A stretch of DNA of 64,000 nt from Diprion similis. Its lineage: Eukaryota > Arthropoda > Insecta > Hymenoptera > Diprionidae. Shown piece after piece: positions 7,965-20,090 of this stretch. Numbering within the stretch: the stretch's first letter is position 1; every line of letters begins with the position of its first letter. Location: contig NC_060116.1 in the NCBI RefSeq assembly GCF_021155765.1, positions 7,688,001 to 7,752,000 of the forward strand. Reading direction: 5' to 3'. The notes under the pieces are model-generated. The model was not told where the DNA came from and did no database searches. It was given only the letters and a program-made list of their open reading frames with translations. The position numbers and the translations under genes were made by a program.

Positions 7965-8457
7965 CTGTGGAATTCTGAGGATATGTTAGACGGCATTCGC
8001 GTTAATTGGAGCATCACTTCGTGTTACCGTTTGAGTTTCATCTATGCTAAACTATTACCACTATATGAAAACGAATCAATAAAGGAAAAGTAATATACCG
8101 ACTGATGCACGCTGTTTGATTGGAGCCCAAAGTCGCAAACCGGTTCTGGGCAACAGATCCATGAGTAAAAAAAACCTTCGGCTATATATAGTACGTGTCG
8201 GTTAAAATATTAAGCCACCGAATTTACGTGTTGTCATGTGCGTCGTATAATATTTTGTATAATTTGGAAAATAGTAGACCATTTAGATTCTTATAGGATA
8301 AGAGGCGGAGCAGCTTTTAGTGGTATAAGTGGTGGGAGCACTGAATAGTAGACGTTTACTCAAACCTTTATTTAAAGCACTTATGCTCAATCACGATGAC
8401 ATAACGTGGCAAATTATACGCACGCAGCTAAGCCGGCACGTATGAATAGATTGAACT
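7965..8457. other. 3' flank of gene 3 and start of duplicated segment
   Basis: 3' UTR and spacer of gene 3, then from 8158 the first copy of the 3.4-kb duplicated segment. CTCAATCACGATGACATAACGTGG near 8390 resembles the sequence before the gene 3 promoter, so the upstream regions of genes 3, 4 and 5 are distantly homologous. No coding potential seen. Confidence 0.55.
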
Positions 8458-8502
8458 TGACGTTACATAAGAACAACCAAAAAGTCTCAAGTGGTTAGTG
8501 TA
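8457..8502 (+). promoter_or_regulatory. Core promoter of EcKL gene 4 (degenerate TATA)
   Basis: TTGACGTTA is followed by TACATAAG (8464-8471) in the place of the TATATAAAG seen before gene 3. The initiator GGTTAGTG (8493-8500) is kept at the same spacing, with its A at 8496. Assignment rests on homology to the gene 3 and gene 5 promoters. A 5' UTR intron may run from GTATGT near 8594 to the AG at 8893-8894. Confidence 0.5.
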
Positions 8503-8896
8503 CAACGTACCTTCTGCGCATCAGTCACAGTTACGCGAGATGCGAAGATCGTGGTTCTGCTGAATAGTCTGTATTTTCTTTCCACTGCGTCAAGTATGTA
8601 ATTATAGTTGTATACGCGGAAGTCAGGTTCGTGTTAAATTAGAACTACCCATTCTTTTCTTCGTTCGGTCAAGGATTTCATAAAACGATTAACACAAACA
8701 CAAACGCGTAGCTGAAAAGCTGATGTAGTTCGTGATATATCGTTTGGTATCATCTGCATTTTTTTAATTGCACTCCGCGAGATTACGTGATAAATAAAAC
8801 ACATCACGATCTAAGGTATAAACTCAACTATCTACAGATTCAATCGTTAATCGTAACACTACTTAGAAGCAGAAAAGGTATTCATAGTACTCAGCA

Positions 8897-10625
8897 ATGG
8901 CAGTGGAGCAACCGGATTGGCTTGACGCGTATTACGTGCAAAAAGTTCTGCGAAAAGCTGAAGTGGACGAATCTATCGAGGTATTTGGAATTACAGTGAA
9001 ACCAGCCACGGCCAAAGGGGATAATTATACCAGCGATATGCATCGTGTCAGTGTAGAATTTTCCCGAGGTCAGAAAGATCGCCGAATTCAGGAGACGCGA
9101 TCCATCATAGTGAAAGTCGCCCCTCAAGACCTTCGAGAAAAATTGGTAACCATTCAAACGTCACTAATCACTACAAATTCGAATAGATTGTTTTTGTATA
9201 CTATTAGTTGATTAACTGTGCAGGTAGAAAGTATAGGAATTTTCGACATCGAGTTGTCAATGATGTCAACTACGCTGCCAAAGATGCAGGAAATCCTCGG
9301 AACATTTTTTACGGAACCTCTAGGTGCACGGTGTTTGTACCATCAGATTGAGAAACCAACTCATATAGTCATCGAGGACCTGACTCCAAAGGGATTCAAA
9401 ATGGCTCATCGCCGATTAGGCCTGGACCTAAGCCACTCTGTACTCGTTGTTCGAAATCTCGCTAGATTTCACGCTTCTTCAATTGCGCTCAGAGAAAAGG
9501 TTAGAGGATAATCTGCACCCTGCACGTTACAAATACTTTTTCTAATAATAGGTAATTTGCTTGAAAATTAATTTCAAACACTCTTCATAAATTTAGTATG
9601 TTCACAAATCGCCGCAAGTTTTATGAAAAAATTTCTTAAAATATGTTAAACTCAGGATCTGAAAGCAATTGACAAGTACAAGAAAGGAATCTTCCACAAG
9701 GATCATCCAATCGAGATGAGGAAGCTGATCAACGCAAACGTAAGATCCCTTGCCAAAGAGACAACGAATTGGTCTGAGCTCAATCCACGGTAATCATTCG
9801 GAACATTTCAACTTCAGTCGGTATCATTTGTCCAAAGCAGGACGTTATTTTGATTATCGAATGATCCGACACTCTTGTTCTGTAGAATTCCAGAAAAACT
9901 TCTCAAGCTATCCGACGTTATGTATGAGAAGGCATGCGAGGTTACTCTCTATCGTGAGGATGATTTTAATGTTCTCAATCACGGCGATTTGTGGGTGAAC
10001 AACGTGATGTTTCGCTATGACAACGATCAGAAGCCGGTGGACCATATGTTTGTGAGTAAATTCAGGTTATACCCTATCGTTCGACACGAAATATTTAACT
10101 GATCATGCATTGTTCTGATTTGCGTGCAGCCTCTGAGCCATCTCTTAGTCGTACCTTCATTAAACATGGAAGAACGCGTGTTCTAGCAATACATTGCGAT
10201 TAATTTTTTCACGTCAATTATAGGTGGATTTTCAATTATGTCATTGGGGCTCACCAACAGAAGATCTTCTTTACTTTTTTGGCACAAGTTTATCCGACGA
10301 TGTCCGAGTTCAGCATCGCGATTTACTTATACGCGAATATCACGCCACCTTAACCACCACGATATCCAAACTAAAGTGCAAAACGGAACCTCTCAGCTTC
10401 GAAAACCTACAAGCACTATTGGAAAGAAGAGCTTTTTGCGAAGTAATTGCTTCGGTCACAATATTAGCAGGTGTTGTTCTCGAAGAAGGGGAAGAATTGG
10501 ATTTTGCAGAAATAATGAAAGTTGGTGAAGAATATGAGAACCCAGGTTATCGAGGTAAGAACTACAGGAAAATCATGACTAGACTCCTACCGTTGTACGA
10601 TAGTATGGGATTGTTGGACATGTAA
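8897..10625 (+). CDS. EcKL (ecdysteroid kinase-like) gene 4
   Basis: EcKL/CHK-type kinase of 408 residues in five GT-AG exons: 8897-9145, 9224-9499, 9656-9789, 9886-10051, 10224-10625. N-lobe: KGDNYTSDMHR (40-50), candidate ATP-contacting Lys73 in IIVKVAPQ, and helix-C Glu93. Hinge near HIVIEDLTP (130-138), then RNLARFHASS. Catalytic loop NHGDLWVNN, with Asp254 and Asn258/259; VDFQ with metal-binding Asp277; C-terminus YDSMGLLDM. The start ATG follows a probable UTR intron acceptor (AG at 8893-8894) by two bases. AATAAA at 10664-10669 is the likely poly(A) signal. Gene 5 is its recent duplicate; CHWGSP and KCKTEPLSF also tie it to gene 1. Substrate unknown; steroid or xenobiotic conjugation is inferred from family membership. 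Confidence 0.93.
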
Positions 10626-11592
10626 GTGTTTGCAGCGATCATCGGGAGCTCCAGTGTACCCTGAATAAATGCTGTAATTAAGAGAAAATTAACCAGCTTT
10701 ACTGATTCTATCATGAGTGAGCACACATCGATGTATGCAACACATCGAGTTGCACGCTAGATAATGAATAACAACTAAATACAAGTCAAACGTGTGAGAA
10801 GACATGCCGATCGTAGTTTTAATAATTTCACTATAGATGTGATGTCGGTCTAATTACAGAGAATTACAGAAAATTCAATCAATCGAATGATTTGGAAATA
10901 GAAGGATGAGCCGAAGAATAAGATACTGTAGAGATTTGCTTTCATCAATATCTGGCCTTGGGCTGGAGTGTTTGTATGAGCTTGGAAAATGAATTCTAGG
11001 TAGTTAGTATAGCTCAGATCTAAATGACCTCGTCCAAAGATTAGCTTAGAAATGCATGCATTCTTACAGGCAATTGTATTATTTTGGATAGCTGAATTGA
11101 TTGTTTTTTCGTTACAAACTGATCACGCAACCAAGTCTATCACACGTACAATAGTCACCGAATGCTGGCCTACCTACCATAAATATGTCACGACGAAATT
11201 ACAACATAGTACTGAAATTGGGCGGAACTAACGAGAATGCCGACACAAGCATGTGCGTAACCAACTGTAAATGAATTTTATAAAACGGTTTAGTCGCCGA
11301 CATGAAACGAATTGAAAAAAATCATATTCCTTTTTTTGTACCAAACGTGTGAGTCATACTTACTACATAAATTCGTATTTCTGTAAGCATAAAATATTGT
11401 TTGTGTCAAATAAATGTTTTTCACAGTTCCTTCGCATTAGTCTTCTTTCCATTATTATATACCCAAATGTGTATGTAAAATAGAACTCGACTCACGTATT
11501 TACAAGCAGTATTACTTCAGTGATTGTGTGTTGTTCTCCCTTGAGATAAAAAAAACCATCATGTTATTTCATGCCAATTATGCAGGAAGCCC
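10626..11592. other. 3' flank of gene 4 (duplicated)
   Basis: Noncoding 3' flank containing the poly(A) signal of gene 4 and AT-rich spacer. It is repeated almost unchanged at 18,142-19,108. No ORF with family resemblance. Its end is the junction with the minus-strand Gypsy fragment. Confidence 0.6.
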
Positions 11593-12310
11593 TGGCGAAG
11601 TTGTTAATGAAACGTCTGTAGTAACCGATTAATCCGAGGAATTATTTTCTTTGTTTCGTCGTCTTTGGGGTTGGATAGTCCTTAACGGCAGATATTTTGT
11701 TCGGGTCGGGTCTAACACCGTTTTCGCTTATTATGTGGCCTAGGTACGCCACTTCTTTTCGTAAGAGCGGGCATTTTTTGGTTTGCAGTATTAAGTTCGC
11801 TGTCTGGAGTCGCTCTGCTAGTTTCTTGAATTTAATTTCGTGTTATCTTAGATTTCGCGCATGAATAACAATATCGTCCAAATAGACAAAGGCGATGTTT
11901 CCGTCTAGTCCCGATAAAACTTGGTCCATGATCCTTTGGAAGGTCGCAGGTGCGTTTTTCAAACCGAACGGCATTCTGTTAAATTCGTAGTGATCTTTCG
12001 GTGTAGAAAATGCGGTTTCATGGCTGTCGGATGGATGCATAGGGATTTGGTGGAAACCGGATGCGAGATCAAAGATGGATAAGTATTTAGCGTTACCTAG
12101 TTGGTCCAGGATGTCCGTAATGTTTGGGAGTGGGTATGAGTCACCGATAGTTTTGTCGTTCAGTTTCCTAAAATCTATCACCATTTTCCATGGTCTGTTA
12201 CCGTCTGCGTCGGGTTTTTTCGGTACTACCCAGACGGGTGAGTTGTATGGTGATGTTGAGGATTTTATAATGTCCTGCTGTAGGAGTTTTGATACCTGTC
12301 CTCTTATTTA
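11590..12310 (-). pseudogene. Gypsy reverse transcriptase fragment
   Basis: Minus-strand translation gives a Ty3/Gypsy reverse transcriptase palm: VVPKKPDADGNRPWKMVIDF, then YPLPNITDILDQLGNAKYLS, FDLASGFHQIPM and MPFGLKNAPATFQR, with the catalytic YLDDIVIH motif near 11,865-11,890. After HARNLR an in-frame TAA (about 11855) interrupts the thumb. A second TAA occurs just before FLGLIGYYRRFI (about 11640), and the homology stops near 11,590 at the border of the duplicated segment. The N-terminal part before GQVSKLLQQDII is missing because sequence between gag and RT was deleted. This is a nonfunctional remnant. Confidence 0.88.
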
Positions 12311-13008
12311 GTCTTGGTTGCGGGATTGTTTTGTGGGGGGGAGGGGGGATTATTTTGCATCAGTTGTGGGAGGCTACCTGTGTTTTGCCATAACGTGATT
12401 CTACGTTTCAATTCTCTATCTTCTGTGATTGCGGCTTCTATAGCATTTTTTAAGGATGTAGGGTGTAAACTTGCTATTCTCGGTTCTAGTTCCGGCCTTA
12501 GTCCACAAACAAAACATTTTAAGGCATCGAGACTCGTTGCTTCGACCAAACCCAATGCATTTTCAGCACTGTATTGTTCTCTGATTGCAGTCGTAGTTTT
12601 AAAAATAATTTGTTCTGTACGCGAGCCGTACCTTAATGAAGTTTCATTTATGCCCTGTCTGAGTGTTGTCGATTCAGCCTGCCACTCGGAGATTGTTTTA
12701 CTGGGATCAAATTCTAGCGCAAGTCGGTTCAAGAGATCATCAATATGGTCGAAAGTTTGATTGCTGACTAAAAAGTCTGCGTCGCCTGTTAGTTTTGTAG
12801 TCAGTAATTTTACAAAAAGCAGATGTTCCGAAGGCCTGACGAGTGACAGTCTAAGTCGGCAATCTCGTGAAAATTTATCGAATGTAACATTAGTCCCATC
12901 GAAAGTGGGTATCGGTTTAACAGCATCGTCGGCTGATAGTTTTGCAATGTCTGAGTTATTAGAGTTCCGGTTTAGTGCACTAGAGTTCGTATCGTTGTCG
13001 CCTGGCAT
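12304..13008 (-). pseudogene. Gypsy gag, C-terminally truncated (234 aa)
   Basis: An open frame of 234 residues on the minus strand directly after the leader. It has a Ser/Asn-rich start, the gag-like IPTFDGTNVTFDKFSRDCR and EWQAESTTLRQG segments, and a C-terminal arginine-rich helix followed by Gln/Pro/Asn-rich sequence. It stops at TAA 12304-12306, where reverse transcriptase sequence begins within a few bases in another frame. The nucleocapsid zinc knuckle and protease expected at this point are absent, so an internal deletion joined gag to RT. Position after the LTR and primer site supports the gag assignment; the subfamily is not certain. Confidence 0.7.
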
Positions 13009-13630
13009 TATGATAGTCTCGATCGAGATTCTTGGTCTAAATATGTGTTCCTAGTTAGGTAAACTTACAAAAAGATGATAGAACTTAGAGAAGGTGACGT
13101 GGTACAGGGGTGATATATCTTGGGGTGTTGTCGTCGTGGGTCTGCGTTGTACTGGGTGTCGTGAAGAATGAAGGTGTCCAGTCGAACAGGGATACAATCC
13201 TCGTTGTAGCAGCAGGAAATAGCTAATTGTTGGATTCAGATGAATCTTTGTGGGGCAGATGCCTTTGAGGTTCAGCAGGAAGCAGCAGGTCAGTAGTTTT
13301 GGCGTTTGAGTGACTCTGAGATTTTTGGTTATTGCCAGATTGGAATCGTCGGAAATACGTTGTAAATAGAATATGACTTTCTTAAAGGTATCGTCAACAC
13401 TGTCACAAGTTTCGAAGAATTTTGGTGTCACGTAGCGTTAATTCTGTGTTTATTTCACAGAATTCGTAAAATTTTAAACGGATCACACAATTTTTTGAAT
13501 TCACGAGTAGTCGTAGAGCAGGAACAAAATATGTCGATGAGGTGTCAAAATCACTAGTATATCAAAAAGCACTATTTACGTAACAAAGACGTGAAGGATT
13601 GAATCACTGAATTCCGGGAAAGCGAAGACC

Positions 13631-13646
13631 ACCGCTAGCCACCAAA
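13631..13646 (-). other. Retrotransposon primer binding site
   Basis: Read on the minus strand, TGGTGGCTAGCGGT begins two bases after the LTR end (TGTAACG at 13647 on the plus strand). On the plus strand this reads ACCGCTAGCCACCA, like a tRNA acceptor end terminating in CCA, as expected for a minus-strand primer site. I did not identify the tRNA. Confidence 0.6.
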
Positions 13647-14760
13647 TGTAACGACTTGCTTGTCGGATATTCCCGGGCGGTAAGGAATAGCCGTTTGGTT
13701 CTACTCCGCTTTTACACTATTGTAGTAACCGGGAATGTAGTGAGTATTTGACGATTCTAGTTATAGCTTTTTATTCGATGGGTACAGTTTAAGAGGTGGA
13801 TCAGAAGTGAAGTAGCGAGTCGAGAGCGAAGCGAGAGTCAGTGCAGAAAAGCAGGGTGCATAGTCAGGGTTCTGGGAACGAGAGGAGATAGTCAGGTGTG
13901 GACAGGATGTATCGGAGATAGTGTAGTCGGATGAAATGGAGAGTATCACTGATAAGTGGGACGAAGAATGAGTGGTGAGTGTGAAGAAGGGCTGAGCACG
14001 TAACAGGTATAGTACATAAAATAATCAAAAAGTGATGTATGTATTGTCGAAGCTTCTTCATTGCGAAGTTGTCTCGTATTTTCGTATATACATTTTCTGA
14101 GGCTAGGGGGGATAAAGGGATACGATTTTCGGAATGAAGAACTCGCATTTAAGCTATCGAATTTTCTACGTTTATTAGCTCTTGTGGGAAAAGCCTTGTG
14201 GCATAAAAACCCACGAAGTTGTGACAATAGCGTATTTGCGTATGTGAGTGTTTATAGAGCACGTTTGGTCCGTGCTATTGCGATCTCGCACCTTAACGTG
14301 TGATTGTTTGTATTTAATTTCTGGTTTGCGTGTTACTTTCGAGTGAGTGTTTGTGATGCCCTTTACCGTGGATTTGTCAGCTGTTGCTGTCCTCTTTTTG
14401 GTAAGGGGTGCATAGTCAAAGGTCGGAGAATCTAGAACCACACGGCCGCTCACCTCGACTGAGAGTCGGAGAGTCTAGAACCGCATGGTTGTTCACCTCG
14501 ACTATTGACCATCGTATATGTTTATTTTGCTCAGTAGAGCCGTGTGTGAGAGAGTCCGGAGCCATCCTCGCTCGGAGAAAGACCGTGATGAACTGAACCA
14601 AAATGTAGATTGCGCGCCCCCCTCCTCGCCCAAACGAGATTCGGAATTCTCGGTGATTCGAATCAATCGGGCGCGGCAGTTTGGAGATCGCAATAGTCCG
14701 AACGAAAATTATTCTTATTCACTAAACATGTATGAATATTTAAATTTGATTCACACGACA
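13647..14760 (-). repeat. Solo-side LTR of the Gypsy element
   Basis: The inner edge is clear: TGTAACG at 13647 next to the primer site. The outer edge is not. Possible CA ends fall at about 14729 and 14760, giving an LTR of roughly 1.1 kb. It includes a two-unit tandem repeat (14422-14503) and no coding sequence. The partner LTR is absent from the other side, so its length cannot be measured by self-comparison. Confidence 0.55.
14422..14503. repeat. Two 39-bp tandem repeats in the LTR
   Basis: Units 14422-14460 and 14465-14503 both begin GTCGGAGA, contain TCTAGAACC and end CACCTCGACT. They are separated by GAGA and differ at about seven positions. Tandem units like this are common in LTR regulatory regions; function is unknown. 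Confidence 0.8.
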
Positions 14761-15656
14761 TAAAATGTTTAATGATGTTGACGTCGTTATTAATAATTAC
14801 TTTAAATACGATAATCGTAACTGATATAAATACGTCGTGTATGAAAAAAAAAAAATGTATATTAAAAATCAGAAAAAATGTTATAAAAATGTTTCGCAAT
14901 TAGTTTAAAAATAATATATATTGGATGAAAAATAAAAAATGGTGTAATCAAAAATAGTTAAGTGATTTTACTAATTACGTTTTATTTCATTAGACATTAA
15001 CAAAAGAATAAAGCATAGCATTAAAATATAATGTGTAACTGATTATCCATTTCCGTTCAAGCGTCTTCGTTTTCCTGTGAAGGTATTATTTGCTATGATC
15101 ATCTACAAGTCACAATATTTTAGAATTGGTTGTTCTATTGAATTAGGAAATTCGAACTGGTGACGAATGTGGTGATATTGTTTATTTTTACCTGCAGGCA
15201 TATATTTTTACTACTTCATATCCCACGATGAGATCGTTTATTCGTCAGTTTAATGTAAAAGGTACGATTCGATATAACCATGAACAAGTCACAGGGTCAA
15301 TCGTTCGAAAACTACATCACGCCGTACTGCCCGTGGATAATTTTTGTGACAATTCTTAAATAAATAAAAAATAAAGAAATTCATACCAGATTGAGATACA
15401 ATCTGATAAATTGACGATTCAGAAAAAAACCAACCCCACAAAAATCATTTGCGAAAAAAAAAAATTGAAAAAATTTAATTGATCAACATATAATATACGC
15501 AGTCTCGGAAAATATAAGTTAACGCAAATGGCTAAGCGGTCACCTATCCAAGTACGCGCATGCCTAGCTGTACGGCATAAATAAAATGGACGTATATAAG
15601 CGCTGCAGCGCCGACAAGCTATCAAGCGCGCGCGATAGCGCGCGTGCTGATCCTAG
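14761..15656. other. AT-rich spacer between Gypsy LTR and duplication copy B
   Basis: Very AT-rich (poly-A/T runs at 14844-14856 and 15455-15465) with no gene. A GC-only patch at 15626-15645 holds CGCGCGATAGCGCGCG, a short palindrome with a GATA-type loop, about 12 bases before the start of copy B. The rest is unassigned. Confidence 0.5.
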
Positions 15657-15954
15657 TCCATGAGTAAAAAAACCTTTGGATATATATAGTACGTGTCGGT
15701 TAAAATGTTAAGCCTCGGAATTTATGGGTTGTCATGTGCGTCGTGTAATATTTTGTATAATTTGGAAAATAGTAGACCATTTAGATTCTTATAGGATAAG
15801 GGGCGGTGCAGCTTTTAGTGGTATAAGTGGTGGGAGCACTGAATAGTAGACGTTTACTCAAACCTTTATCTAAAGCACTTAGGCTCAATCACGATGACAT
15901 AACGTGGCAAATTATGCGCGCGCAGCTAAGCCGGCACGTATGAATATATTGAAC

Positions 15955-16000
15955 TTGACGTTACGTAAGAACACCCAAAAAGTCTCAAGTGGTTAGTGCA
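15955..16000 (+). promoter_or_regulatory. Core promoter of EcKL gene 5 (TATA further eroded)
   Basis: Equivalent of the gene 4 promoter: TTGACGTTACGTAAG (TATA position 15962-15969) and GGTTAGTG initiator (15991-15998). The gene 4 TACATAAG has become TACGTAAG, so no TATA-like core remains, while the initiator is unchanged. Confidence 0.45.
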
Positions 16001-16412
16001 TAACGTACCTTCTGCGCATCAGTCACAACTACGCGAGATGCGAAGATCGTGGTTCTGCTGAATAGTCGGTATTTTCTTTCTATTCGTGCTGCGTCAAGTA
16101 TGTAATTATAGTTGTGTACGCGGAAGTCAGGTTCGTGTTAAATTAGAACTACCCATTCTTTTCTTCGTTCGGTCAAGGATTTCATAAAACGATTAACACA
16201 AACACAAACGCGTAGCCGAAAAGCTGATGTAGTCCGTGATATATAGTTTGGTATCATCTGCATTTTTTTAATTGCACGATAAATAAAAGACCGCGAGATT
16301 GCGTGATAAATAAAACACATCACGATCTAGGGTATAAACTCAACTATCTAGAGTTTCAATCGTTACTCGTAACACTACTTAGAAGCAGAAAAGGTATTCA
16401 TAGTACTCAGCA

Positions 16413-18141
16413 ATGGCAGTGGAGCAACCGGATTGGCTTGACGCGTATTACGTGCAAAAAGTTCTGCGAAAAGCTGAAATGGACGAATCCATCGAGGTCT
16501 TTGGAATCACAGTGAAACCAGCCACGGCCAAGGGGGATAATTGTACCAGCGATATGCATCGTGTCAGTGTAGAATTTTCCCGCGGTCAGAAAGATCGCCG
16601 AATTCAGGAGATGCGATCCATCATAGTGAAAGTCGCCCCTCAAGATCTTCGAGAAAAATTGGTAACCATTCAAACATCGCCAATCACTACAAATTCGAAT
16701 AGATTGTTTCTGTTTACTATTAGTTAATTAACTTTGCAGATAGAGAGTATGGGAATTTTCGACATCGAGTTGTCAATGATGTCAACTACGCTGCCAAAGA
16801 TGCAGGAAATCCTCGGAACATTTTTTACGGAACCTCTAGGTGCACGGTGTTTGTACCATCAGATTGAGAAACCAACTCATATAGTCATCGAGGACCTGAC
16901 TCCAAAGGGATTCAAAATGGCTCATCGCCGATTAGGCCTGGACCTAAGCCACTCTGTACTCGTTGTTCGAAATCTCGCTAGATTTCACGCTTCTTCAATT
17001 GCGCTCAGAGAAAAGGTTAGAGGATAATCTGCACCTTGTACGTTACAAATACTTTTTCTAATAATAGGTAATTTGCTTGAAAATTAATTTCAAACACTCT
17101 TCATAAATTCAGTATATTCACGAATCGCCGCAAGTTTTATGAAAAAATTTCTTAACATATGTTAAGCTCAGGATCTGAAAGCAATTGACAAGTATAAGAA
17201 AGGAATCTTCCACAAGGATCATCCAATCGAGATAAGGAAGCTGCTCAACGCAAACGTAAGATCCCTTGCAAAAGAGACAGCGAATTGGTCTGAGCTCAAT
17301 CCACGGTAATCATTCGGAATATTTCAACTTCAGTCGGTATCATTTGTCCAAAGCAGGACGTTATTTTGATTATCGAATGATCCGACACTCTTGTTCTGTA
17401 GAATTCCAGAAAAACTTCTCAAGCTTTTCGACGTTATGTATGAGAAGGCATGCGAGGTTACTCTCTATCGTGAGGATGATTTTAATGTTCTCAATCACGG
17501 CGATTTGTGGGTGAACAACGTGATGTTTCGCTATGACAACGATCAGAAGCCGGTGGACCACATATTTGTGAGTAAATTCAGGTTATACTCTATCGTTCGA
17601 CACGAAATATTTAGCTGATCGTGCATTGTTGTGATTTGCGTGCAGCCTCTGAGCCATCTCTTAGTCGTACTTTAATTAAACATGGAAGAACACGTGTTCT
17701 AGCAATACATTGCGATTAATTTTTTCACGTCAATTATAGGTGGATTTTCAATTTTGTCATTGGGGCTCACCAACAGAAGATCTTCTTTTCTTTTTTGGCT
17801 CAAGTTTATCCGACGATGTCCGAGTTCAGCATCGCGATTCACTTATACGCGAATATCAAGCCACCTTAACCACCACGATATCCAAACTAAAGTGCAAAAC
17901 GGAACCTCTCAGCTTCGAAAACCTACAAGCACTATTGGAAAGAAGAGCTTTTTACGAAGTGATTGCTTCGATTACAAAATTAGCAAGTGTTGTTTTCGAA
18001 GAAGGGGAAGAATTTGATTTCGAAGAAAAAATGAAAGTTGGTGAAGAATACGTCCACCCAGGTTATCGAGGTAAGAACTACAGGAAAATCATGACTAGAC
18101 TCCTACCGTTGTACGATAGTATGGGATTGTTGGACATGTAA
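16413..18141 (+). CDS. EcKL (ecdysteroid kinase-like) gene 5, recent duplicate of gene 4
   Basis: EcKL/CHK-type kinase, 408 residues, exons 16413-16661, 16740-17015, 17172-17305, 17402-17567, 17740-18141, all GT-AG. Catalytic Asp254 (NHGDLWVNN), Asp277 (VDFQ) and Lys73 are intact. Compared with gene 4, the glycine-rich segment reads KGDNCTSDMHR, so Tyr44 is Cys. Exon 2 has only three base changes, at its 5' end. Exon 5 has about 20 changes, most altering amino acids (for example Leu to Phe and Tyr to Phe early in the exon, Cys to Tyr, and Ile to Lys twice). AATAAA at 18180-18185 is the likely poly(A) signal. It seems functional and diverging in its C-lobe, where family members bind substrate. 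Confidence 0.92.
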
Positions 18142-20090
18142 GTGTTTGCAGCGATCATCGGGAGCTCCAGTGTACCCTGAATAAATGCTGTAATTAAGAG
18201 AAAATTAACCAGCCTTACTGATTCTATCATGAGTGAGCACACATCGATGTATGCAACACATCGAGTTGCACGCTAGATAATGAATAACAACTAAATACAA
18301 GTCAAACGTGTGAGAAGACATGCCGATCGTAGTTTTAATAATTTCACTATAGATGTGATGTCGGTCTAATTACAGAGAATTACAGAAAATTCAATCAATT
18401 GAATGATTTGGAGATAGAAGGATGAGCCGAAGAATAAGATACTGTAGAGATTTGCTTTCATCAATATCTGGCCTTGGGCTGGAGTGTTTGTATGAGCTTG
18501 GAAAATGAATTCTAGGTAGTTAGTACAGCTCAGATCTAAATGACCTCGTCCAAAGATTAGCTTAGAAATGCATGCATTCTTACAGGCAATTGTATTATTT
18601 TGGATAGCTGAATTGATTGTTTTTTCGTTACAAACTGATCACGCAACCAAGTCTATCACACGTACAATAGTCACCGGATGCTGGCCTACCTACCAGAAAT
18701 ATGTCACGACGAAATTACATCATAGTACTGAAATTGGGCGGAACTAACGACAATGCCGCCACAAGCATGTGCGTAACCAACTGTAAATGAATTTTATAAA
18801 ACGGTTTAGTCGCCAACATGAAACGAATTGAAAAAAATCATATTCCTTTTTTTGTACCAAACGTGTGAGTCATACTTACTACATAAATTCGTATTTCTGT
18901 AAGCATAAAATATTGTTTGTGTCAAATAAATGTTTTTCACAGTTCCTTCGCATTAGTCTTCTTTGCATTATTATATACCCAAATGTGTATGTAAAATAGA
19001 ACTCGACTCACGTATTTACAAGCAGTATTACTTCAGTGATTGTGTGTTGTTCTCCCTTGAGATAAAAAAAACCATCATGTTATTCCATGCCAATTACGCG
19101 AGAAGCCCGCATTCGCCTCACAATCAGATATTTCTGCCGTGTTCTTTGCTCCGCACTCGCGTGCGTTTAATTGGCATCACATTGGTGTAAGTGTCTGAAT
19201 TTACGACGAAATTTTCGAGCGATTTGAGCGATTGGTATTTCGAAAGACTTGAATGAAAATATCGTGATCAGGCATAAACTAATCTTCAACGAAATATTAA
19301 TACTACTTTGTTGACATTGCCACGATATTCCACTGCATGATTATCATGTATAAAAAAAAAACAGTAAAATTTTAAATCTTCGAGTAAGCCGATTGCGGAA
19401 TAGTGAATACCTTCATTCAGAAGGAACTTAATGTTGAATTTACATGAAGACTGCAAGACTAAAACCAGGCGTTAATATTATGACGAGGATTGATAAGCTG
19501 CGGAATCGGCACTCCATTCGCTCCGGCGTTTCACAGAACTAAATCGAACTGTCAAGGCCTTATGCACAGAGTGCATTGTGATTGGCGTCAAACACTCACG
19601 CAAACATCGATTCATTTCGATCACGTTGCATATTTACGTACACCACGATTTCTCGTACGACGTACAAACGCAGCTGCACTAAAGCTCAGTCAGTGCAATC
19701 GGCGGACACGCTATCCTCCGTAAAGCCTAATGTGCACCGTATATTTTGAATTGACACTTCAAGTCCTCCAAAGAAGAGCAAATTGATGCAAACGAGGTGA
19801 AGTTGACAGCTCAGCACGGCCAGGGACCTTAGATCGACATTTGAAAGCTACTGTCACGGGCCCAACAAGAAGAGGACAAAAGCTTATCACGGATTTGGAC
19901 AATATATGGTCGGATTCTTCATTATCAATTTGCATTATTGTCCCAGTTCATTATCTCAACTGTATACGTTTTCAAACAACCAGGAAACAGAAATACTAAT
20001 TATATATTTGACGAGAGACTCTGACGGATTGACATTACCTGCTAAATGACAATGTAGTTGTAAATTATGCATGGCACATGATTACAGCAG
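18142..20090. other. 3' flank of gene 5 and spacer to gene 6
   Basis: Up to 19108 this is the duplicated 3' flank. From there to the gene 6 promoter it is unique spacer with no family-like or other credible ORF. The frame at 19490-19723 has no recognisable motif. Confidence 0.55.

Follow-up and report, generated by a model that had tools for sequence, protein, structure and literature searches.

Probable loss of constraint on the last exon of a young EcKL duplicate in Diprion similis

Two tandem copies of an EcKL gene

The DNA analysed here, which we call the window, is a stretch of 64,000 nucleotides of Diprion similis (contig NC_060116.1, positions 7,688,001 to 7,752,000, forward strand), and positions are counted from its first letter. 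It holds two duplicated units, each with one gene, and a spacer between them.

8158..11585, plus strand: duplication unit A with gene 4 (BLAST extends the match to 11592)
8897..9145, 9224-9499, 9656-9789, 9886-10051 and 10224-10625, plus strand: exons 1-5 of gene 4, 408 codons and a stop, GT/AG introns
11586..15656, no strand assigned: spacer between the duplicates, made up largely of pieces of mobile elements; these include an LTR-like repeat (about 13647-14005), gag and reverse-transcriptase frames (minus strand) and further repeats
15657..19101, plus strand: duplication unit B with gene 5 (BLAST extends the match to 19108)
16413..16661, 16740-17015, 17172-17305 and 17402-17567, plus strand: exons 1-4 of gene 5, in register with gene 4, GT/AG introns
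17740..18141, plus strand: exon 5 of gene 5, rich in replacements, residues 276-408; 20 of 402 bases and 15 residues differ from gene 4

Compared over 8168-11585, the two units differ at 111 of 3418 aligned bases, and a DNA search of the genome gives the match between them as 96%. Both genes run through 408 codons and a stop with GT/AG at all splice sites, and exon 5 of gene 5 follows that of gene 4 at an offset of 7516 without indels. The proteins are 94% identical and match PF02958 (EcKL, cut-off 22 bits) over their whole length, gene 4 with an E-value of 1.1e-76 and 258.5 bits and gene 5 with 3.2e-73 and 247.1 bits. Both translations contain HGDLWVNN and VDFQ, which we take to be the catalytic HxDxxxxN loop and the DFQ motif, and the residues H252, D254, N259, D277 and Q279 are invariant in an alignment of ten EcKL proteins. 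To judge from their sequence, genes 4 and 5 arose by a recent tandem duplication of a small-molecule kinase gene of the EcKL family (PF02958). They resemble the insect EcKL arrays in their Pfam match, their tandem arrangement and their intact kinase motifs, a likeness known here at the level of sequence. Passages of two papers link the family to steroid phosphorylation and, as a candidate role, to detoxification (PMC12117438, PMC7850051).

A false duplication of the two units by the assembler was judged unlikely because the sequence beyond the units cannot be aligned, a 4-kb spacer lies between them and the window contains no N. The spacer has at least 43 matches in the genome at an E-value of 1e-10, itself included, among the best 40 of 169 candidates scored. 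The matches to its gag and reverse-transcriptase element end at about 11592, close to the boundary of the unit. The LTR-like repeat spans about 359 bases and is present in many copies. Upstream of its ATG gene 5 carries 6 bp (16083-16088) and 12 bp (16278-16289) that are absent from gene 4. These two stretches sit within 340 bases 5' of the ATG, and expression of the two genes might differ.

The array continues upstream (G000:C12:7669176-7721422) with at least 4 more genes that have an open exon 5, and a related EcKL copy lies at C12:4747816. Also upstream of the window is a decayed EcKL copy (L055, 7660-8610) that keeps exons 1 and 2 and, after them, no more than the final codons of exon 5. 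At the left of the window, exon 2 of gene 1 (69-340) has 272 bases against 276 and matches its paralogues in two frames, a net frameshift, and gene 1 may be a pseudogene despite its open exon 5.

Distribution of the differences and the noncoding yardstick

The first-pass annotation had counted by eye about 20 differences in the 402 bases of exon 5, around 16 of them changing amino acids, against 9 of 249 in exon 1 (mostly silent), 3 of 276 in exon 2 and about a dozen of some 960 in the 3' flank, and these counts hold up well. Exon 5 differs at 20 of 402 bases, 17 of them in replaced codons and 3 in silent codons, with 15 amino acids replaced. The 9 differences in the 249 bases of exon 1 are 6 silent and 3 replacement, the 3 in the 276 bases of exon 2 are 1 silent and 2 replacement, and a base-by-base check of the 3' flank found 15 of 960, 4 of 480 in its first half and 11 of 480 in its second. 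Exons 3 and 4 differ at 5 of 134 and 4 of 166 bases. Introns 1 to 4 differ at 7 of 78, 7 of 156, 1 of 96 and 7 of 172 bases (15 of 424, or 3.5%, for introns 2-4 pooled) and the 5' flank at 33 of 729 (4.5%; 17 of 333 and 16 of 396 in its halves).

Altogether 25 amino acids differ between the two genes, and 15 of these are in exon 5. In terms of replaced codons this is 15 of 133 in exon 5 versus 10 of 275 in exons 1-4 (Fisher p 0.0039, for an exon chosen by eye among five). When exon 5 is taken as 16 replacement and 4 silent differences, its share of the replacements gives p 0.0024 and its share of all differences p 0.024. The ratio of replacement to silent differences is 15:5 in exon 5 versus 10:11 in exons 1-4, a weak contrast (p 0.11, or p 0.052 with the 16:4 variant), and after neighbouring changes are collapsed it is 14:1 versus 10:10 (p 0.009).

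The differences are densest in one tract, and a segment of low divergence follows it.

17954..18055, plus strand (gene 4 10438-10539): densest tract, 15 of 102 bases, residues 347-381
18056..19101, plus strand (gene 4 10540-11585): low-divergence segment with 15 of 1046 bases different, covering the last part of exon 5 and the 3' flank

A scan at a length of 102 bases, which was fitted afterwards, gives p 0.0006 for the tract, and lengths of 50, 150 and 200 give 0.064, 0.012 and 0.062. Over 14 lengths the scan has p 0.006, and within the left, more diverged block (8168-10697) p 0.017. Several of the changes in the tract are adjacent to each other, for example those at gene-4 positions 10535-10539. 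When changes within 2 bp are merged, 99 events remain of the 111 differences, the tract keeps 10 of them, and the scan p rises to 0.26 and 0.36. We do not claim the tract as an event of its own because its significance is gone once neighbouring changes are merged (p 0.26). Multinucleotide changes are a published source of false inference of selection (Venkat et al. 2018, as cited in a passage of PMC7475028).

The choice of a neutral yardstick matters here. Noncoding divergence along the units is uneven (chi-square p 0.0005), and the total divergence of exon 5, at 5.0%, is like that of the 5' flank and intron 1 (p 1.0) and of introns 2-4 (p 0.39) and differs from that of the 3' flank (p 0.0006). 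A maximum chi-square scan of all sites places a break at gene-4 position 10540, with 96 of 2372 bases differing on one side versus 15 of 1046 on the other (permutation p 0.010). The same scan of noncoding sites alone places it at 10177, with 55 of 1184 (4.6%) versus 15 of 1007 (p 0.006). The contrast with exon 5 looks inflated because the 3' flank used as its yardstick is unusually similar between the units. Genes 4 and 5 have perhaps exchanged sequence there by local conversion, though a lower mutation rate or constraint on the flank would leave the same picture. Exon 2 is also low and lies inside a run of 284 bases free of differences (p 0.009), which constraint and conversion both fit.

It had been proposed at first that an excess in exon 5 would be refuted if its silent sites and the flanks had diverged as far as its replacement sites. 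For the silent sites (dN 0.055, dS 0.045) and for the noncoding sequence left of the break (4.6%) this equality is found, while the 3' flank is lower.

Replacement rates and the family background

Codon likelihoods were calculated with our own code rather than PAML, using a GY94 type of model with F3x4 frequencies. Kappa was fixed at 2.2 for the pairwise fits of each exon and at 2.4 for the fits of one versus two omegas. In the branch-site fit kappa was kept at its value from the branch model, as were the other branches' relative lengths. In the pairwise comparison exon 5 has an omega of 1.22, which does not differ from 1 (p 0.72), and exons 1-4 pooled have an omega of 0.31 (dN 0.017, dS 0.054), which is below 1 (p 0.009). 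Taken singly, exon 1 (omega 0.17, p 0.011) is the only one of exons 1-4 significantly below 1; the omegas of exons 2, 3 and 4 are 0.75 (p 0.82), 0.50 (p 0.47) and 0.33 (p 0.28). Two omegas, one for exon 5 and one for exons 1-4, fit better than one, with p 0.0026 when the neutral time is shared and only marginally (p 0.048) when the times are free, and there was no sign of a difference in neutral time between the two parts (p 0.81).

The branch models place these values against the rest of the family. In exon 5 the terminal branches of genes 4 and 5 have an omega of 1.20 with 8 genes (p 0.74 against 1) and of 1.34 with 13 genes (p 0.61), where the larger set holds 13 of the 15 full-length matches and excludes two on contig C6 with 30-31% identity. 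The family background of exon 5 is lower, at 0.23-0.25 (p 0.0014 with both 8 and 13 genes). In exons 1-4 the omega of genes 4 and 5 is 0.32, which is below 1 (p 0.011) and does not differ from the background (p 0.58). The branch-site test found no support for a positively selected class, whether the foreground was gene 5 alone or the two copies together (p 0.38); the fitted class holds 21% of sites with an omega of 2.7. The rate of replacement in exon 5, at 16 of 289 sites, is like that of the local noncoding sequence, 55 of 1184 (p 0.54, or p 0.65 with 15 of 289), and it is higher than that of all noncoding sequence, 70 of 2191, at p 0.057. Exon 5 of this pair thus has an omega of about 1, above its family background. 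With omega near 1 and a rate like that of local noncoding sequence, the data show that exon 5 lost constraint and do not show an excess over neutrality.

Exon 5 is not a generally fast exon in this family. It holds 0.60 of the amino-acid differences between genes 4 and 5 and 0.25-0.37 of those in the other 20 of the 21 pairs formed by the seven window genes, while making up 0.33 of the sites; gene 1, the exon 1 stretch of which lies beyond the window, does not enter the counts for exons 1 and 2. The exon 5 positions that were replaced are among the more variable ones of the family (p 0.019), and of 35 positions invariant in the six other window genes one was replaced (T296S).

The changes fall mostly on the branch of gene 5. 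In exon 5 gene 4 has a branch length of 0.030 and gene 5 one of 0.127 with 8 genes (equality p 0.062); with 13 genes the two lengths are 0.012 and 0.146 (p 0.015). Exons 1-4 lean the same way, with 0.016 and 0.064 (p 0.23), so the asymmetry of the gene 5 branch is not special to exon 5. At the 20 differing sites of exon 5 the commoner state among 11 other paralogues is that of gene 4 at 13, that of gene 5 at 5 and tied at 2, and 16 of the gene-5 states and 19 of the gene-4 states are found in at least one of the 11.

Readings of the exon 5 changes

On balance we favor a release of constraint in a young EcKL duplicate that diverges asymmetrically from its sister, with exon 5 freed and exons 1-4 held, and we regard this account as probable. 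Once the gene had been duplicated, the last exon, which encodes the C-lobe from the DFQ motif on, would have been freed from purifying selection, mostly in gene 5. Replacements in exon 5 would then have built up roughly as fast as neutral changes, with exons 1-4 together still under constraint. Gene 4 presumably kept the old role, which would permit the relaxation of gene 5, and gene 5 would still be translated into protein; the 3' flank may have been homogenised. Since exons 1-4 together are constrained, the protein of gene 5 is probably used, and HGDLWVNN, DFQ and the splice sites of gene 5 are intact. The pair is most likely a common case of a young duplicate that diverges asymmetrically. 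A similar pattern is described in passages of a study of young paralogues in the pea aphid (PMC7475028), where likewise one copy evolves faster and both relaxed constraint and selection are proposed as causes. The same passages report positive selection in many of the fast copies, whereas here the release is concentrated in one exon and no test for selection is significant.

Pure relaxation, however, does not predict one feature of the changes, which concerns the substrate pocket. A profile of ten EcKL proteins matches the 4-hydroxytryptamine kinase PsiK (structures 8zic and 9eto) with an E-value of 0.0014, and two aminoglycoside phosphotransferases match slightly better (0.0008 and 0.0009). 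The catalytic loop and the DXE/DFQ segment of PsiK align with the profile, although the homology is remote. Two replacements in gene 5 align with pocket residues of PsiK.

17754, plus strand: L280F, aligned with the PsiK substrate-pocket residue L252
17789, plus strand: Y292F, aligned with PsiK Y264

In the available passages of the PsiK study (PMC11808438), the L252A mutant is less active, and the Y264A mutant has a reduced turnover of 4-hydroxytryptamine and not of psilocin. Of the nine PsiK residues named there four can be aligned, and two of those are unchanged: D224 and W226 align with D254 and W256 in exon 4, which are the same in genes 4 and 5. The other five (T180, L184, M315, W316 and F319) find no placement in the EcKL profile alignment. 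As the PsiK pocket residues 315-319 cannot be aligned, residues 347-381 of gene 5 could not be located in the structure, and their sequence alignments to solved structures were too short or at chance level. The replacement of both alignable pocket positions in exon 5 has a chance of about 0.012-0.013, computed post hoc. The earlier suggestion that the excess of replacements sits in the C-lobe is supported. Exon 5 is part of the C-lobe, and two of its changes align with PsiK pocket residues.

These two residues, with their remote alignment to the PsiK pocket, are the best argument for adaptation, which may have retuned the enzyme. Positive selection, which the first-pass annotation had offered as one explanation, would have fitted the substrate pocket of the gene 5 enzyme to a new compound, with L280F, Y292F and some of the changes in 347-381 driven and the others neutral. 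The alanine mutants of the aligned PsiK residues alter activity, that of Y264 in a substrate-dependent way, the point estimates of omega exceed 1 (1.22 and 1.34) with a branch-site class at 2.7, and the constraint on exons 1-4 suggests a protein in use. Against this, none of the tests rises above neutrality (omega 1.1-1.3, p 0.61-0.76, branch-site p 0.38) and the replacement rate is that of local noncoding sequence. Two of the four alignable pocket residues did not change, F280 and F292 are residues that sister genes also use, and the clustering of the changes hinges on neighbouring ones. We hold selection to be the foremost of the alternatives, although an unlikely cause of the exon 5 changes. 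A related account, in which gene 5 is caught midway through a switch of substrate, with the frame of exons 1-4 held and the C-lobe exon rewritten at 280, 292 and elsewhere, seems to us doubtful as well.

A further alternative is that gene 5 is an early pseudogene in which exon 5 decays first. This would agree with the neutral rate in exon 5, with the fall of the Pfam score from 258.5 to 247.1 bits, with changes at residues that are invariant in the other paralogues (S229F, T296S) and with the presence of the decayed copy L055 in the same array. Even so it is rather improbable given that the frame, catalytic motifs and splice sites of gene 5 are intact and omega in exons 1-4 together is 0.31-0.33.

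The least probable reading, and a very improbable one, is that gene conversion inserted a diverged tract from another EcKL copy into exon 5. The density of the tract, with 15 of 102 bases different and 3 of them in silent codons among its 35 codons, could be read in this way, and two other EcKL groups in the genome look mosaic as conversion predicts. A donor was searched for in the 269-Mb assembly (60 contigs), with the best candidates scored. The eight matches listed for exon 5 are gene 5 itself, gene 4 at 95%, gene 1 at 71% over the full length and five that are shorter or weaker. Two of these five are pieces of gene 8, one of 206 bases at 74% and one of 62 bases at 81%. A core of 151 bases matched only genes 4 and 5 among the best candidates scored. 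No donor into exon 5 was found among the window paralogues (gene 6 does not enter the exon 1 rows), the longest gene-5-like run in 11 other paralogues covers 3 of the 20 sites, and all 11 lack 4 of the 20 gene-5 states. FCHW and YQA of gene 5 are indeed found in gene 1 too, as had been pointed out when conversion was first proposed, but the two replaced residues shared with gene 1, F280 and Q315, are encoded there by TTC and CAG and in gene 5 by TTT and CAA. As far as the search reaches, neither gene 1 nor another copy in the assembly is borne out as a source of conversion.

The two mosaic groups lie on other contigs. In the group of L006, L007 and L008 (G000:C1:9299284-9310443), the first 80 codons of L006 resemble L008 (5 amino-acid differences) and its open frame past codon 120 resembles L007, so that L006 may have arisen by unequal crossing over or by conversion. 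In L004 and L005 (G000:C11:6151328-6155972) codons 80-199 are nearly identical, with 4 amino-acid and 2 silent codon differences, and either side of them is more diverged, as expected of a conversion tract.

The case shows that an unusually similar flank, when used as a yardstick, can give neutral replacement the look of selection. If residues 280 and 292 set the specificity of EcKL enzymes, genes 4 and 5 would be a natural pair for locating the substrate determinants of the family.
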